DNA of 47,053 nt. It comes from a virus. Positions 30,765 through 45,360 of this stretch are shown piece after piece. The first letter of the stretch is position 1. Each line of letters begins with the position of its first letter. The stretch lies in IMG/VR virus record IMGVR_UViG_3300035670_000360, positions 1 to 47,053 of that record; one strand, written 5' to 3'. Both the position numbers and the translations under genes were made by a program. Below the pieces are notes generated by a model, which was not told the origin of the DNA, did no database searches, and saw nothing but the letters and a program-made list of their open reading frames with translations.

Positions 30765-31970
30765 TTAAACCCTCTTATAGAAATATACTGAGCCTGTCGT
30801 GGTATTGAACGTCACAAAACAAGATTTGCCGCCCCATTGACCAACATATCGGAATCGCCCAAACGGGCCGCCCCCACCACCGCCTGCTGGTGACGTTGGT
30901 GTGACGGTATTACCACCTACCGGAGCCTCTGCTGTAACCGTCAATGCAATCGGATCGACAACATAGATGTTTGCACCACCGATCCAAGCAATGTTTTCGC
31001 CATTCGCAGCATCATAATCAAAACCCAATTCAGCAGTTCTAGCCACTGCGGAACCGCCACCCGTCCAAGTGTCGTTTTGTGAAACAACGCTTGGGGAATC
31101 AGGCGCGGATATGTCAATCAATGTGGGTTTTGACGACCCAAGAACAACAAGCAACTCATTGGCAACGTCATGCACAACGGTGCTCCAATGCGTTTCGAAA
31201 TCGCTAAAGTATGGCGCCGATGTGTACCAATTAAGCCTAAGCGTCGGCGTTGCTGGTGATGCCGGGTTGCGACTCCACAACCCGCCGCGCGTCACGATCC
31301 AGAATCTATTGTTTACAGAATCCCAGCAGGTCAGCAGATTTCCTGCGTAAACGTAATCATTACCGCCGCTTTGTGCGGTCAGTTCTGTGTATGTGTCAGT
31401 ATCTGGTGTATAAGACCACGCCGCGCCACCAAACAGCCCTGTGTCAACTCCAGAAGGACTGCCGCCGCCACGAAAAAACACATCGGACGTTTCAGAATAT
31501 GCCAAACCGCTGTACGTGTGATATGCACTTGGCCTACTTGTATCGTCTTGATACCCGTCAGGGGTTGAATAACTTGCCGACACATCCGGCCAGCTAACGC
31601 GCTCCCACGCCATAGCAGCGACATTGAAGCGATACCATTCGTTGCCGTGATAGTCCAAATGACCGCCACCGTTTACATATAACGCTTTCCGTCGGTCGGA
31701 ATACACCGCTCCGGAGTATTTCGTTATCCCTGCAAACTGTGTGCTTCCGCTTAGCGCAGTCCACTCACCAGTAGTTAAGGGTGAATCTAACGACACGGTC
31801 GGATCAGGGCTTAACGTCGAAAGTGTATCCCCTGTATATTCGTACCATGTACCCGGAGTCATAGTAGTGAGTACATGATTAGCATAAGGATCAGTCTCAA
31901 CATACCTGTCAGTTACCTTCTTATCTGGTGACTGAGGTAGATCCTCTACTAATGGGAATACAAGGGTCAT
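30765..31970 (-). CDS. Tail protein with beta-propeller-like region; first gene of the late operon
   Basis: This 401-residue protein has an N-terminal segment (residues 1-60: VFPLVEDLPQSPDKKVTDRY, TPGTWYEYTGDTL) in the codon style of the phage core and a distal part with kelch- or propeller-like repeats (WSYTPDTDTYTELTAQSGG, NNRFWIVTRGGLWSRNP, WIGGANIYVVDP), Gly-rich near the C-terminus. It is likely a receptor-binding tail protein. It is the first leftward gene after the control region, so late transcription begins with the adhesins. Confidence 0.7.
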   Translation of the reverse strand: MTLVFPLVEDLPQSPDKKVTDRYVETDPYANHVLTTMTPGTWYEYTGDTLSTLSPDPTVSLDSPLTTGEWTALSGSTQFAGITKYSGAVYSDRRKALYVNGGGHLDYHGNEWYRFNVAAMAWERVSWPDVSASYSTPDGYQDDTSRPSAYHTYSGLAYSETSDVFFRGGGSPSGVDTGLFGGAAWSYTPDTDTYTELTAQSGGNDYVYAGNLLTCWDSVNNRFWIVTRGGLWSRNPASPATPTLRLNWYTSAPYFSDFETHWSTVVHDVANELLVVLGSSKPTLIDISAPDSPSVVSQNDTWTGGGSAVARTAELGFDYDAANGENIAWIGGANIYVVDPIALTVTAEAPVGGNTVTPTSPAGGGGGGPFGRFRYVGQWGGKSCFVTFNTTTGSVYFYKRV

Positions 31971-32062
31971 TAGGTTATCCTTGGTGTATAATGTAAGTAC
32001 TTGTTACGATTTACCTACAGTTATAAACATATGTAGATAATATTAATCATATATTATTATAA

Positions 32063-32078
32063 AGGCGCGAGAGCGCCT
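32063..32078 (-). terminator. GC hairpin in the late-operon leader (attenuator or terminator)
   Basis: AGGCGC-GAGA-GCGCCT is a perfect 6-bp stem. On the minus strand it is followed by TTTATAATAATATA, a weak U-rich tract, so it could stop or attenuate leftward transcripts about 90 bp before the first late gene, or mark the upstream end of the late promoter region. On the plus strand no U-tract follows. Confidence 0.45.
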
Positions 32079-32088
32079 CTATGGGGTA

Positions 32089-32208
32089 ACCATTCGTGTC
32101 AGAATCTTTGATTCGTTACCGAATGTAGTACCAATGTTTCATTGGTGTTCTAATGAATTTATTTTAGCATATTTTTCACAAAAAGTAAAATATATGTACC
32201 ATTCGTGT
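32089..32208. repeat. Two exact 11-bp direct repeats ACCATTCGTGT
   Basis: Copies at 32089-32099 and 32198-32208, 109 bp apart, in otherwise AT-rich leader DNA of the late operon. A partial copy (ACCATTCG) occurs near 32600. They could be operator or promoter elements for the leftward arm; no -35/-10 pair is convincing. Confidence 0.5.
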
Positions 32209-32314
32209 ACTAAGTAGCTGATATGTAACACATGGGTGTCCGCAAGGAGTGCCACAAAAATTGCCTAGAAATTTCCGAGGGGTTAAATGCAGGTACAAAG
32301 ACCCCCACACCCCC

Positions 32315-32462
32315 GGGTACACCCACAGGCACACCCGTGTGTACGCATGTGTACGCACAGGCACACGTGTGCACAGGGGTACACACGCGAGCACCCACGT
32401 ACGTGTGTACACACGGGTATACGCACGCGTACGCGTATGCACCCGTGTACGTACGCGTGTAG
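32315..32462. repeat. Alternating purine-pyrimidine, palindrome-dense block (Z-DNA/cruciform-prone)
   Basis: This block is built of GT/AC/GC/TA steps. Unbroken purine-pyrimidine alternation runs 32337-32359, 32397-32415, 32417-32442 and 32445-32461. Perfect palindromes include GCACACGTGTGC (32361-32372), CACGTACGTG (32397-32406), CGTGTGTACACACG (32402-32415), ACGCGTACGCGT (32425-32436) and GTACGTAC (32447-32454). No CDS explains it. Such DNA adopts Z-form or extrudes cruciforms under negative supercoiling. Confidence 0.8.
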
Positions 32463-32465
32463 CAT

Positions 32466-32479
32466 TAGGGTTAACCCTA
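32466..32479. repeat. 14-bp perfect palindrome TAGGGTTAACCCTA
   Basis: Sits four bases beyond the alternating purine-pyrimidine block. The core GGTTAACC recurs in the ATTGGTTAACC boxes at 32546, 38655 and 38730, so it may be a related protein-binding site. Confidence 0.6.
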
Positions 32480-32545
32480 GTGTCTCCAATATGCGACAGC
32501 ATTGTTGTAAATTTACCACACCATACTCCCTCACTCCCTTGCTCC

Positions 32546-32559
32546 ATTGGTTAACCCAT
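32546..32559. promoter_or_regulatory. ATTGGTTAACCCAT box
   Basis: One mismatch from the perfect palindrome ATTGGTTAACCAAT at 38730-38743. Three such boxes exist in the two main non-coding segments, suggesting a common DNA-binding protein. Confidence 0.5.
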
Positions 32560-32714
32560 TGATTACCCGCATGATCCATATGAATTCCCTTATATACACC
32601 ATTCGATCCGTACTGGTTAAAATCACAGTATGCCCTAGAACGCATTTAAACGCGTTTTAAGCCGCTTTACCTGCTACCCGCTACCCTTGCCTTGGTTCCC
32701 TTGCGAACTCGATT

Positions 32715-32785
32715 TGGCACACATCTTGCATACTTTGCACTGGCATACTACTTGCATACATTGCACACTTGGCACACATCTTGCT
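32715..32785 (+). promoter_or_regulatory. Three tandem sigma-54 promoter-like repeats
   Basis: TGGCAC-ACATC-TTGCA (32715-32730), TGGCAT-ACTAC-TTGCA (32741-32756) and TGGCAC-ACATC-TTGCT (32770-32785) each match the RpoN pattern TGGCAC-N5-TTGCW with the invariant GG and GC ten bases apart; the middle copy has one change. They are also direct repeats of 26-29 bp with TTGCATACWTTGCAC between. Reading is rightward, toward the structured RNA and early genes. They may instead be iterons for a replication or regulatory protein; the exact consensus fit is what favours sigma-54. Confidence 0.5.
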
Positions 32786-32887
32786 ATTCGCGCATACATG
32801 CGGTTCATTCATGTTCGCGTACAGAACACTGTATATCCATCCAGTCATTCGGAATACTTTACACTCAGAACCCGCATAAACACTGGT

Positions 32888-32995
32888 ATCCAGTACTTTA
32901 TACAGTGGTTTCACTGTCGATTATCTTTACACCGCTAACCCGCATGGTTCCTAGCATCCAGTGGTTTATACAGTAGTTTACTGTCGGTTTTCTTT
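32888..32995. repeat. Duplicated ~40-bp element with compensated hairpin
   Basis: Copies at 32888-32928 and 32956-32995 share ATCCAG, TTTATACAGT and ACTGTCG blocks. Each contains a 6-bp hairpin: ACAGTG-GTTT-CACTGT (32902-32917) and ACAGTA-GTT-TACTGT (32970-32984). The closing pair changes G-C to A-T together, so pairing or dyad symmetry is kept. Shorter relatives (ATCCGTACAGTA at 33003, ATCCATACAGTA near 33096) follow. Confidence 0.65.
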
Positions 32996-33014
32996 CTGGT
33001 TATCCGTACAGTAC

Positions 33015-33080
33015 TGACAATTTTTGTCACCTTTTGACCAAATTTTGTCACATTCTGACACTTTTGGTCACTTTTGGCAC
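33015..33080. repeat. Phased array of six TTTTGNCAC-like boxes
   Basis: Boxes TTTTGTCAC, TTTTGACCA, TTTTGTCAC, TTCTGACAC, TTTTGGTCAC and TTTTGGCAC start at 33022, 33032, 33043, 33053, 33062 and 33072. The 9-11 bp spacing puts all on one face of the helix. The first also forms a dyad, TGACAA-TTT-TTGTCA. This looks like a cooperative binding array for a regulator or replication initiator. Confidence 0.65.
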
Positions 33081-33159
33081 ACAATACCACTGTTTATCCA
33101 TACAGTATTCGGCTATGCCATAAATTTATAGCCTTATAAATCAACAACTTACACACACT

Positions 33160-33175
33160 TGGCACCAACTCTGCA
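33160..33175 (+). promoter_or_regulatory. Sigma-54-like site before the structured RNA region
   Basis: TGGCAC-CAACT-CTGCA keeps the GG/GC spacing of RpoN promoters with one change (CTGC for TTGC). Transcription would start at about 33186, at the left edge of the stem-rich segment and ~590 bp before the first early gene. Confidence 0.4.
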
Positions 33176-33756
33176 CTATCCAGTTTGTCTTCGGACACTC
33201 GATGTAGAATCCCGAGTCAGGGCAGAGTGTTCAGGATAGGCCGCGAGTTGCTTAGAGCGCTGTATGTCGTTCAATCGTGGTAACTATCCAGCGTGTGAGT
33301 GTGTACACGCCTTGATGATTGGATGCCACGGCTATAACCAATCAAATACAGGTCGATACCGTTTAAGCCGTTTCGGTACACACTCGCAAGTTAGATACCC
33401 GACCATGGGTTCACGGTTTACTTGTGTCCGTGAAAATGGCGTCACCCCGTGCGTAGTACTGGGAACCAATCACAAGACTAGCAGCCAAGGTGCGCATGGT
33501 TCGTCCGGTTTTCATAACGGATGCAACGTAGCGTGACCAAAAAAGCTAGGGAATTCCGCACCAGTAAAGGGGTTAAACTCCCCGTGCCGGGTGAATGGAG
33601 CCAAGGGAGCCCTGCAAACGTGCTCACCGAGAGAGATAGGCAAACCGTAAGGTTTGGTGAGTCTCAGGGTTAGTAACCCCGGAAAAATAAGGATAAACGC
33701 TTGCATGACAAAGCAAGCGCCTTATGATGCACACTCTTGCATGGTGTGAGAGTGTG
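33176..33756 (+). ncRNA. Candidate large structured non-coding RNA or long early leader
   Basis: About 580 nt with no credible ORF but many strong plus-strand stems: CTATCC/GGATAG (33176/33234) around GGACACTC/GAGTGTTC (33193/33225); a 13-bp long-range stem 33294-33306 with 33376-33388; inside it TGATTGG/CCAATCA (33316/33338); TTCACGG/CCGTGAA (33410/33428); GCAC+GGGG with CCCC+GTGC (33558-33587); CAAACC-GTAA-GGTTTG (33641-33656) with GNRA loop on CTCAC/GTGAG; a 13-bp stem at 33687-33725 with one bulge; CACACTCT/AGAGTGTG (33730-33756). Size and phage context recall ornate large RNAs such as GOLLD or ROOL, but I cannot assign a family. It may be a free RNA or part of the early mRNA leader. Confidence 0.55.
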
Positions 33757-33774
33757 AACTATAGGGGAAATATC

Positions 33775-34254
33775 ATGGCAACGAAATCTATCAAGACTCG
33801 CATCAATGACGTTGTGAAATCTGCATCTTCACAGCGCGTGAAGGTTCAGGAAATCGTGGATGAAGTAGGCGCAAGCCTCCCATCGGAAGCAGGGAACCTG
33901 TCCCTGCTATCCTACCTTGTCACCCGTCTGGGTGAATTGGGAAGCGTGCAGGCTGGCCGCTTGCGCGGTTATATCTTGCACCGGTGCGAAGGTACCGTAG
34001 TCTGGTCGGACAAGACTAGCGCATTCCAAAAGCGTGCCAAAGGAAGCGCGATACAGTGGGCAAGCCAATGCCCTGATATGTGGTACACATGGGAGAAAGA
34101 GCCCACAACTACCACCAAAAAAGTATCAATCGAGAAACGATTGATGAAACTATTGGAAGCCTGCCAAGGTGACGGCGTGGAAGTGACCGATCCACAATGG
34201 ATCGACAAGCTTCGCACCCTGCTAGGTATCAACCTAGAGGACACCGCAGAGTAG
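33775..34254 (+). CDS. First early gene: hypothetical protein (159 aa)
   Basis: ATG 33775 follows AGGGGA at ideal distance, directly downstream of the structured leader. The protein has a helical N-terminal part resembling a small winged-helix or HTH-like fold (RVKVQEIVDEVGASL; LLSYLVTRLGELGSVQAG RLRGY in two parts), a middle with WASQCPDMWYTWEKE and a C-terminal helical domain. As the first gene injected and expressed, followed by its own terminator, it may act in host takeover or regulation; that is inference from position. Confidence 0.75.
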   Translation: MATKSIKTRINDVVKSASSQRVKVQEIVDEVGASLPSEAGNLSLLSYLVTRLGELGSVQAGRLRGYILHRCEGTVVWSDKTSAFQKRAKGSAIQWASQCPDMWYTWEKEPTTTTKKVSIEKRLMKLLEACQGDGVEVTDPQWIDKLRTLLGINLEDTAE

Positions 34255-38635: not shown

Positions 38636-38798
38636 GTTAACATATTGTTACTCTATTGGTTAACTAATGATAACTAATAAAGATAATATATAATATTATA
38701 TATAATAATAAATAATATATTATTAGACCATTGGTTAACCAATTAGTTCCACACTTTTGAAAATATATTTTATTGAACCTTTCAGACAGGAGACAGTC
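38636..38798. other. AT-rich segment flanked by ATTGGTTAAC palindromes (replication-origin candidate)
   Basis: 38670-38726 is nearly pure A/T (TAATATTATATATAATAATA and neighbours). It is bracketed by ATTGGTTAACTAAT (38655-38668) and the perfect palindrome ATTGGTTAACCAAT (38730-38743). A related box is at 32546. An unwinding element between two identical binding boxes, in the only sizeable gap of the rightward arm, fits a replication origin. Confidence 0.5.
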
Positions 38799-43484: not shown

Positions 43485-43973
43485 ATGGGTACCTACGTAT
43501 TTGATATAGAAACAAACGGGTTGAACCCTGATCGTGTGTGGTGCGCAGTGTTCCTTGATGTGGAAACACAGGAGTTCAGAAAGTTCTACTCACCAGAAGG
43601 GTTCACAAGAGGGCCACTATCACACCTGCTAGTGAAGTTTGTTAACGAGGCAGAGTGTCTAATTGGGCATAACATACTTGGGTTCGACATCCCTGTATTA
43701 CAGGACGTTGTTGGTGTAGATGCTTTGAATGGAAGATTGGTGGACACATTGATATGGTCTACTATCTCCCGTAAGTGGCGCAACGATCACACACTAGAAG
43801 GCTATGGTGAAGAATATGGGAGACCAAAACCAAAGCATGAGGACTGGAGTAAGTACAGCGATGAGATGCTCCACCGATGTAGCGAAGACGTTCTCATCAA
43901 CTACGAACTGTGGAAATCCCTCTGCAAAGACACCATCAAGTGGCAAGGATACTCTCTCAAAGAGAGAGCTTAA
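43485..43973 (+). CDS. DNA polymerase I-type, 3'-5' exonuclease part (frameshifted from the polymerase part)
   Basis: GAGGTGA precedes ATG 43485. The 162 residues form the proofreading exonuclease of a T7-type family A polymerase: FDIETNGL (Exo I acids), LIGHNILGFDIPVL (Exo II) and HRCSEDV (Exo III Asp, with His five residues before it where T7 has Tyr four before). The frame ends at TAA 43971. Polymerase coding resumes at once in the +1 frame, so a whole enzyme needs a frameshift. Confidence 0.85.
   Translation: MGTYVFDIETNGLNPDRVWCAVFLDVETQEFRKFYSPEGFTRGPLSHLLVKFVNEAECLIGHNILGFDIPVLQDVVGVDALNGRLVDTLIWSTISRKWRNDHTLEGYGEEYGRPKPKHEDWSKYSDEMLHRCSEDVLINYELWKSLCKDTIKWQGYSLKERA
43952..43973 (+). 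promoter_or_regulatory. Putative +1 frameshift site / indel-prone hairpin in the DNA polymerase gene
   Basis: CTCTCTC-AAA-GAGAGAG is a perfect 7-bp inverted repeat directly before GCT TAA C. Dropping one base within it joins SLK to RELNIEKAL in the polymerase frame. The purine-rich SD-like GAGAGAG and weak stop context TAAC recall the RF2 frameshift arrangement, but dinucleotide repeats also favour sequencing or replication slippage. Confidence 0.5.
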
Positions 43974-43989
43974 CATTGAGAAGGCGTTA

Positions 43990-45360
43990 ATGCTTGAGTC
44001 CATGCTTGCTGATGTGATTCGTGATCAGTTCAAGCGTGGCTGGGAGATAGACATACAGCTACTGGATAGCCTTATTTCAACGCTAGAGGCCCGTAGTAAA
44101 GAGATCGAGGTAGAGGTGGTACCTACATTGCCGTCGGTACCAAAAGGGGCACCAAAGGCAACGGAGAAGGTATACAAGGCTAGTGGGGAATACACTCAGC
44201 TAGTTATCAAGTGGTTCCCAGTGGACTACATACTGGATCAATGTGTCGCTGGCCCGTTCACCAAGGTGCAATTCATTGAGTTCAACATTGGTAGCCATGA
44301 TCAGGTAAAGAAGTACCTGCTTGCTAATGGCTGGGTTCCTACCGAGTGGAACCGTAAGCGAGACGAGAATGGTAGGTGGCAGAACACTAGCCCCAAGATC
44401 ACAGAAGACTCATTGAAATCTGTTGAGCACCTTGGTGGTACGATGAAGCTCATCTCTGAGTACATAGTGTGTAACCACCGACTGTCTAACCTTAAGACTT
44501 GGAGGGAGAAAGTTGAAAAAGATTCTAGTGGGTACTATAAACTACATCATACAGCCAATACTGTTCATGCTCCCACAGCTAGAATGGCGCATCGAGTACT
44601 TGTCAACGTACCTAATGAAGACTCGTTCTTGGGTAAAGAAATGCGTCAGCTCTTTATTGCACCGGATGGGTATAAAGTAGTTGGTTGTGATGCCAAAGGT
44701 TGCCAGATGAGGATGCTTGCACACCACATCAAAGCAATCTGCGGTAGAGAGACCACGTTCGTAACCGCTGTTCTGCACGGTACCAAAGAGAACAACGATG
44801 ACGTACACTGCTTGACACAGAAGGAGGCAGGCTTAGCAAAGAGGTCTGAAGGTAAGACACTGAACTATGCTATCCTGTTTGGGCAGAGCGATCCAGCACT
44901 AGCCCGGAGTCTTGGGTGTACTGAACGTAGGGCCACGGCAATCAAAGCACAGTTCTTCAAGAAGATGCCAGAGTTAAAGCGTGTCATTGAGATACTAGAG
45001 GCACAGTGGCAGCGGTCTCACATTGATAAAAGCAGGAGGTTTATTGTTGGTCTGGATGGTAGACCAATCTTTTGTAACAGTAAGCACAAACTGGTTAACT
45101 ACCTTGTGCAATCGGACGAGGCTATCCTGATGAAGTACTTCTACTGCCTACTGTGGAATGCTCTACAGAGGGAGAGACTGGATGCTTACATTGTTTTATT
45201 CTACCATGACGAGGTGCAAATTGTAGCAAGAGAAGATCATGCTGAACGTGTTGCGGAACTTTCTGCTAAGCTGCTTGTCAAAGCAGGACAACTACTAGGG
45301 ATCACAGTACCAACAGAAGGTGATCCATCAATCGGTAACAACTGGCGAGAAACACACTAG
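43990..45360 (+). CDS. DNA polymerase I-type, polymerase domain (T7 gp5-like, second part)
   Basis: This frame encodes the palm, fingers and thumb of a T7-type polymerase. It is open well upstream of 43990, where an ATG follows GAGAAGG and could allow separate initiation (456 residues); fusion by frameshift from 43485 would give about 620. Motif A reads GCDAKGCQMRMLAHH, with Gln at the usual steric-gate Glu; motif B RSEGKTLNYAILFG keeps the Tyr of T7 Tyr526; motif C is FYHDEVQI. Replicates phage DNA with the helicase. It ends at TAG, so amber is a normal stop here. Confidence 0.85.
   Translation: MLESMLADVIRDQFKRGWEIDIQLLDSLISTLEARSKEIEVEVVPTLPSVPKGAPKATEKVYKASGEYTQLVIKWFPVDYILDQCVAGPFTKVQFIEFNIGSHDQVKKYLLANGWVPTEWNRKRDENGRWQNTSPKITEDSLKSVEHLGGTMKLISEYIVCNHRLSNLKTWREKVEKDSSGYYKLHHTANTVHAPTARMAHRVLVNVPNEDSFLGKEMRQLFIAPDGYKVVGCDAKGCQMRMLAHHIKAICGRETTFVTAVLHGTKENNDDVHCLTQKEAGLAKRSEGKTLNYAILFGQSDPALARSLGCTERRATAIKAQFFKKMPELKRVIEILEAQWQRSHIDKSRRFIVGLDGRPIFCNSKHKLVNYLVQSDEAILMKYFYCLLWNALQRERLDAYIVLFYHDEVQIVAREDHAERVAELSAKLLVKAGQLLGITVPTEGDPSIGNNWRETH

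Follow-up and report, generated by a model that had tools for sequence, protein, structure and literature searches.

Gene layout and affiliation of the phage

The window analyzed here is the whole of IMG/VR record IMGVR_UViG_3300035670_000360, a virus genome of 47,053 bases. To judge from its proteins, the record is a Zobellviridae-like podovirus genome. Its TerL is 43 to 47% identical to those of ICP2, KZY1, PS32B, and other Zobellviridae phages, and PHROG matches identify tail-appendage, tail, portal, capsid, primase/helicase, DNA polymerase, and ribonucleotide reductase genes. The TerL, portal, capsid, and tail-appendage proteins are those of the family, and so is the arrangement of late and early genes in divergent arms separated by a long noncoding gap. 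Late genes run leftward across 6297-31970, while early genes run rightward from 33724, past the record end and on to 6024. The same divergent-gap layout is found in ICP2, CW02, PS32B.11, ICBM1, RIO-1, and others. The borders of the gap were drawn from the list of open reading frames (ORFs) and the PHROG matches of the late genes.

30765-31970, minus strand: last ORF of the leftward late arm
31971-33723, no strand: noncoding gap between the divergent arms
33724-34254, plus strand: first ORF of the rightward early arm

The two contig ends, 1-262 and 46792-47053, share 262 bp within an exonuclease-like early gene and are 97% identical there. The map is therefore closed, and the population contained two variants. 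By a by-eye count from the alignment, these variants differ by about 7 transitions and 2 transversions. Elsewhere in the record, the DNA polymerase is split over two overlapping frames, 43485-43973 (exonuclease part) and 43804-45360 (polymerase part), both matching phrog_17; a frameshift, an intron remnant, and an assembly error are all possible readings. An AT-rich noncoding stretch at 38665-38771 carries stacked palindromes of 18, 14, 14, 14, and 12 bp, including ATTGGTTAACCAAT, and may be a replication origin.

Relatives were drawn from eleven described phage records and 80 viral contigs retrieved by TerL alignment. Alignment was required, as single-protein searches of viral contigs (TerL, primase/helicase, and early protein) returned no relatives. 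A blastn search with the gap against annotated phage records gave nothing meaningful, with no similar DNA and no second copy of the block described below.

A phase-locked purine-pyrimidine block in the gap

Our analysis confirmed that the gap contains an odd block of about 150 bases in which purines (R) and pyrimidines (Y) alternate.

32317-32461, no strand: phase-locked purine-pyrimidine alternating block of 145 bp, with 10 mismatches and zero phase shifts

The initial annotation had reported four long alternating tracts at this site, which understated the pattern. The four longest unbroken alternating tracts of the record (26, 24, 20, and 18 nt) all lie within 32336-32461 and belong to a single lattice with a score of 105, compared with about 16 to 22 for the next best segments of the record. 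Purines keep to one parity and pyrimidines to the other at 135 of the 145 positions. The interruptions are all of odd length (3 or 5), and the alternation therefore stays in one phase, making 32317-32461 a single lattice. Its extent depends on the penalty: a mild mismatch penalty gives 32287-32461 and a stricter one 32317-32461. A C-rich strip on the left (see below) was considered as part of the lattice and dropped because the stricter penalty starts the lattice at 32317.

Nothing else in the record comes close to this pattern. A 147-bp stretch at the block is 86% alternating versus 51% (standard deviation, 5) across the record. In thirty dinucleotide-preserving shuffles of the whole record, the longest tract reached at most 19 nt, and the sum of the four longest tracts reached at most 66, compared with 88 observed. 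The observed coherence was never reached in 20,000 draws of a first-order R/Y chain at the observed alternation rate.

The block is built from AC, GT, and GC steps, with GTAC (9 versus 2.9) and GTGT (8 versus 1.9) in excess beyond the R/Y pattern. Within the register, A and G stand at 33:36 and C and T at 42:24 (about 2:1), with 10 transversion-type mismatches in 145 positions. Inside the block there are short GTGTGT and ACACAC runs and, at 32338-32357, two copies of the 10-bp unit TGTGTACGCA. Over 40 nt, self-similarity slightly exceeds an R/Y-preserving null (P = 0.012). Over 20 to 30 nt it is no higher than that null, on which ground a tandem-repeat origin of the block was mostly rejected. 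Searches of the alternating sequence against RNA families gave sub-threshold matches only, to eukaryotic microRNA and internal ribosome entry site (IRES) models, which we took as chance. We likewise dropped a link to DRT3, a defense system that makes poly(CA)/poly(TG) (PMC13174585), because the block is not a poly(CA)/poly(TG) repeat and nothing connects the two.

Palindromes, open frames, and Z-DNA propensity

The block had been described as having no coding explanation, and its noncoding status holds: the ORFs at this position overlap on both strands. Their openness is a by-product of composition, as had also been proposed, because TAA, TAG, and TGA are all YRR and are therefore impossible within an alternating tract on either strand. 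The five perfect palindromes of 8 to 14 bp that were first noted are present as well, but alternation accounts for them. We counted 7 palindromes of at least 8 bp in 148 bp, compared with a mean of 5.4 in shuffles that preserve the R/Y string (P = 0.28), and their length is also as alternation gives (P = 0.32). The palindromes are thus explained by the alternation and are not separate features.

Of the DNA structures that the initial annotation had assigned to the block, Z-DNA and cruciforms, only the former finds backing in the sequence, as a propensity. Using Z-Hunt-type step energies, which serve for ranking only, we found that the four lowest-energy 24-mers of the record all fall in the block. 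Inverted repeats do not exceed compositional expectation, and single-strand DNA folding of the block is ordinary (z = -1.5). The palindrome arms are 4 to 7 bp long, and arms of this length are too short for cruciform extrusion. A restriction-site-rich decoy, also suggested, is not supported: GTAC is in excess, but short palindromes in general are no commoner than the R/Y pattern gives.

The block adjoins a conserved packaging-terminus motif

Immediately to the left of the block, partly overlapping its first bases, lies a motif conserved across the family. It reads roughly AATTTCTnnnAGAAATnTTnnAGGnGnnATGCA, then CCCCCnnnnCCCCC, and is found in the divergent gap of most records that reach the gap. 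A model of eight phages picks up the motif in 22 further records, all in the expected orientation. These 30 sequences, with the window excluded, were used to build a second nhmmer model, whose best match in the record is 32261-32324 (E = 0.0014; next, E = 1.1). This is also the best match in the record for the 8-sequence model (E = 0.16). The same C-rich strip that lies within the motif in the window occurs in ICP2, KZY1, PS32B.11, ICBM1, SIO1, T5S1, and CW02 and at the start of the GP100 record. The window thus has in its divergent gap the cut-site motif with C-rich strip of a Zobellviridae-type direct terminal repeat (DTR).

Terminal repeats with a G+C-rich start are already known in this group. 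Cobavirus repeats measure 159 to 173 bp by PacBio sequencing and share a conserved G+C-rich 5' end, and the ends of VpV262 and RIO-1 are stated as already characterized (PMC6775973). Annotated terminal repeats are 121 bp in RIO-1, 138 bp in VpV262, and 172 bp in ICBM1. In these three phages, the annotated DTR starts 17 to 19 nt after the A of AGAAAT in the motif (AGTAAAT in ICBM1). The VpV262 match has a low score (E = 0.76 among 4 junction sequences) yet falls exactly at the annotated end. The corresponding A in the window is 32267, and the offset in the three relatives would therefore put its left end near 32285.

32261-32324, plus strand: conserved packaging-terminus motif, AGAAATTT..GAGGGG..AATGCA..ACCCCCACACCCCC (nhmmer)
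32284-32286, no strand: predicted terminase cut and left physical end of the packaged DNA, from the 17- to 19-nt offset in relatives, +/- about 2 nt
32285-32457, no strand: predicted direct terminal repeat, from the DTR lengths of relatives, with its right edge at ~32405 to 32457
32300-32324, plus strand: C-rich strip CCCCCACACCCCCGGGTACACCC, the G+C-rich 5' part of the predicted repeat
32466-32479, no strand: 14-bp perfect palindrome TAGGGTTAACCCTA, just right of the block and possibly near the right edge of the repeat

We therefore predict a terminal repeat of 121 to 173 bp in the window, almost filled by the block. The block directly follows the terminus motif, and the lattice ends at 32461, compared with a predicted repeat end at 32405-32457. 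The contig closes elsewhere, and its assembly is continuous across the terminus, which is what a collapse of the two repeat copies would produce. Very probably, then, to go by homology with the characterized termini, the block accounts for most of the sequence repeated at the physical genome end, beside the early promoters. The initial annotation was right to place it between divergent arms, and its suggestion of a replication or packaging element was apt as to place, directly after a conserved packaging-terminus motif. This location is well supported; the function proposed below is an inference. Repeated GGTTAACC palindromes are found at 32466-32479 (the one immediately right of the block), 32549, 20946, 28430, and 38733.

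Alternating tracts recur in the leaders of relatives

Among the related termini compared, none has a block of such size inside the repeat. Alternation over the matching 180 bp is at most 59% in 31 of the 31 other measurable termini versus 79% in the window. In the nearest relatives with a terminus (L014, L015, and L018; TerL identity of about 50%), the predicted repeats contain unrelated sequence that does not alternate, so such a block is not needed for packaging. In L023, the repeat body contains a plain TA run.

The tracts of the relatives are mostly 15 to 50 nt long and lie 200 to 600 nt from the end, outside the repeat. Defining the leader as 0 to 800 nt past the genome end and a phased tract as one scoring 16 or more, we found 21 phased tracts in 24 kb of leader versus 15 in 810 kb elsewhere. 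With the window left out, the leaders hold 20 phased tracts, distributed over 16 of 33 genomes, versus a mean of 2.8 in dinucleotide shuffles (maximum of 7 in 60 runs). Distant regions have fewer than their shuffles (4 versus 9.3). The most Z-prone 14-mer of a sequence, ranked by the Z-Hunt-type step energies, lies within the leader in 10 of 29 cases, with 0.85 expected. The initial annotation had asked whether related phages replace the block with unrelated sequence. The nearest ones do replace the exact block, but shorter alternating tracts are still in excess in the leader. The block is an extreme case of the R/Y alternation that this phage family tends to place near the genome end. In a distant phage, L013 (IMGVR_UViG_3300023440_000009)/L100, 45 bp of phased alternation lie upstream of TGGCACACATCTTGCATA.

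Sigma-54-type elements in the early leader

Between the block and the early genes, the window contains a set of promoter-like elements.

32552-32564, minus strand: IHF-type consensus match AATCAATGGGTTA, between the block and the promoters
32715-32784, plus strand: three tandem sigma-54-type -24/-12 elements, TGGCAY-N5-TTGC at 32715, 32741, and 32770, directed toward the early genes
32789-32802, no strand: CGCGCATACATGCG, a short tract of alternation just downstream of the third -12 element, in the expected start-site region

At the sequence level, the three tandem elements have the -24/-12 consensus and fixed spacing of sigma-54 promoters. Across the family, 14 sigma-54-type elements occur in 24 kb of leader versus 4 in 1.7 Mb of strand elsewhere, an enrichment of ~248-fold. 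Their distribution suggests early transcription by the host RpoN holoenzyme in many Zobellviridae. Such elements were also seen at ~2675 in L004, at ~426 on the minus strand in L006, and in L042, L049, L079, L015, L007, and the GP100 leader. In KZY1, 1.253.O, L042, L049, and L079, an alternating tract, e.g., TACGCGCATGCGCGT, comes immediately after the -12 element; the arrangement is weaker in GP100 and the window. The tracts that follow sigma-54-type elements are often of the TACGCG type, and the most enriched 8-mer of the leaders is GCTACGCG (6 genomes; 0.1 expected).

Other consensus matches are enriched in the leaders of relatives as well: IHF 12-fold, CRP 56-fold, and Fur-type 46-fold; for CRP and Fur, whose sites are symmetric, both strands were counted, within the leader and outside it. 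CRP-type sites were noted in the leaders of CW02, ICP2, PS32B.11, and 1.253.O. Fur-box-like dyads (TGANAATNATTNTCA) lie 50 to 200 nt past the predicted end in L015, L023, L043, and L049, in or just beyond the predicted repeat. In the window, the sigma-54-type elements have TGACA/TTTTTGTCAC-type repeats downstream of them, at 33014-33077, and L013/L100 is arranged similarly. Sequences resembling sigma-70 promoters or terminators occur in the gap about as often as chance would give, and the block does not stand out in the record when scored with a weight matrix built on the start-site tracts.

A predicted terminal repeat in which alternation may be kept

Taken together, these observations lead us to propose, with a probability of about 0.5, that the block serves as terminal repeat plus early-promoter leader, making up most of the direct repeat at the left end, and that its alternation is kept for DNA mechanics. 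The block would start where the terminase cut-site motif ends and fill the rest of the repeat; virion DNA would then carry it at each end, and the replicating concatemer would carry one copy per unit. Its alternation would be maintained rather than accidental, with the mechanical job of easing strand opening or bending, or of absorbing supercoiling, during terminus processing and the start of early transcription. The family places such DNA repeatedly in the leader, from the genome end to the early genes, often at sigma-54-type start sites. Every second step in alternating R/Y DNA is a pyrimidine-purine step, flexible and easily opened, and negative supercoiling makes such DNA prone to the Z form; a linear incoming genome has no supercoil available for Z-DNA. 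The repeat and its edges are predicted by homology, and the mechanical role of the alternation we infer.

The main rival agrees that the block lies in the terminal repeat and holds that it is neutral filler whose alternation is left over from simple-repeat growth (slippage of GT, AC, and GC, with exchange between repeat copies), the repeat body outside the cut motif being free to vary. The wholly different repeat bodies of the relatives, the TA run in L023, the short GTGTGT and ACACAC runs, the doubled TGTGTACGCA unit, and the slight excess of 40-nt self-similarity would all fit such an origin. However, the block has nearly as many transitions as it could carry, yet 93% of its positions remain in the R/Y register, and decay from one simple dinucleotide repeat would need a corrected transition/transversion ratio of ~12.5, compared with ~7:2 in the contig-end variants. 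For this reason selection on alternation as such is favored over neutral growth, although not strongly, and the argument would weaken if the block were assembled from several different simple repeats. The self-similarity over 20 to 30 nt, no higher than the null, and the recurrence of alternating tracts in unrelated sequences across the family also speak against neutral growth, which we regard as a serious possibility and, on balance, an unlikely one.

In another reading, the block would be a set of binding sites that acts as an upstream activator region, recognized either by a phage regulator or by a sigma-54 enhancer-binding protein. It lies 250 to 400 bp upstream of the three sigma-54-type promoters, with the IHF-type site between, and the palindromes and GTAC excess would be its dyad sites. 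The tandem elements, the IHF match, the GTAC and GTGT excess, and the leader enrichment of sigma-54-type, IHF, CRP, and Fur-type sites are in line with this idea. We nevertheless judge it improbable: the palindromes are not above the R/Y null, no repeated unit with fixed spacing was found in the block, the start-site-tract matrix does not pick it out of the record, and relatives with the same promoters do without such a block upstream. An artifact of metagenomic assembly might be suspected from the low complexity of the sequence, its occurrence in a single contig, and the lack of a second copy among annotated phage records, but this is very improbable given that the block is not a simple repeat, adjoins a conserved motif in the expected order on its left edge, and has a length that fits the repeats of relatives in a contig that closes elsewhere. 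We find it just as hard to credit a cruciform-forming or restriction-site decoy element, despite the seven palindromes of 8 to 14 bp, since their number and length are what alternation yields and neither the folding score nor the arm length favors extrusion.

A broader scheme can also be sketched, which we offer only tentatively and consider unlikely as a whole. In it, the Zobellviridae would have a terminus-proximal control module in which early genes are read from host sigma-54-type promoters whose melting region is R/Y-alternating DNA. In the lineage of the window, this alternation would have come to occupy the entire terminal repeat, kept by selection as a phase-locked lattice and linking genome-end processing or circularization to early transcription through DNA mechanics.

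Relation to known systems and significance

In T7-type genomes, a short direct repeat stands at both ends, one copy is present per concatemer unit, and early genes lie by the left end. The predicted repeat of the window would likewise stand at both ends and once per concatemer unit, with early genes beside the left end; no sequence in common would be expected, and the flanking repeat arrays of T7, unlike the block, are not known to be R/Y-alternating. Z-DNA-forming elements near bacterial and eukaryotic promoters are R/Y-alternating and rich in CG, CA, and TA steps. The block resembles them in alternation, step content, and proximity to promoters and differs in lying at a phage terminus and in being mixed sequence rather than CG or CA repeats. 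The elements at 32715, 32741, and 32770 fit the consensus of proteobacterial sigma-54 (RpoN) -24/-12 promoters; here, however, they are tandem and in the leader of a virulent-type phage, and in relatives an alternating tract follows directly. The closest counterparts are the DTRs of the Zobellviridae (VpV262, RIO-1, and cobaviruses ICBM1 to ICBM3; PMC6775973), which share the position in the divergent gap, the cut motif followed (mostly) by a C-rich strip, the length of 121 to 173 bp, and the T7-like layout. Their repeat bodies are ordinary mixed sequence, whereas the phased R/Y lattice is found only in the window.

In the openly accessible literature searched, we found no description of a repeat body formed by a phase-locked R/Y lattice, nor of a family-wide coupling of alternating tracts and sigma-54-type leader elements. 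What appeared as a compositional oddity becomes a predicted genome end that can be checked by read mapping, and the family-wide terminus motif is usable for placing the ends of metagenomic Zobellviridae. Across the family, the early leader is measurably enriched in alternating R/Y DNA and in sigma-54-type elements. Should the alternation prove to be selected, phage termini would offer a natural system, easy to probe, in which to test for deliberate use of Z-prone or highly flexible DNA by bacteria and phages.
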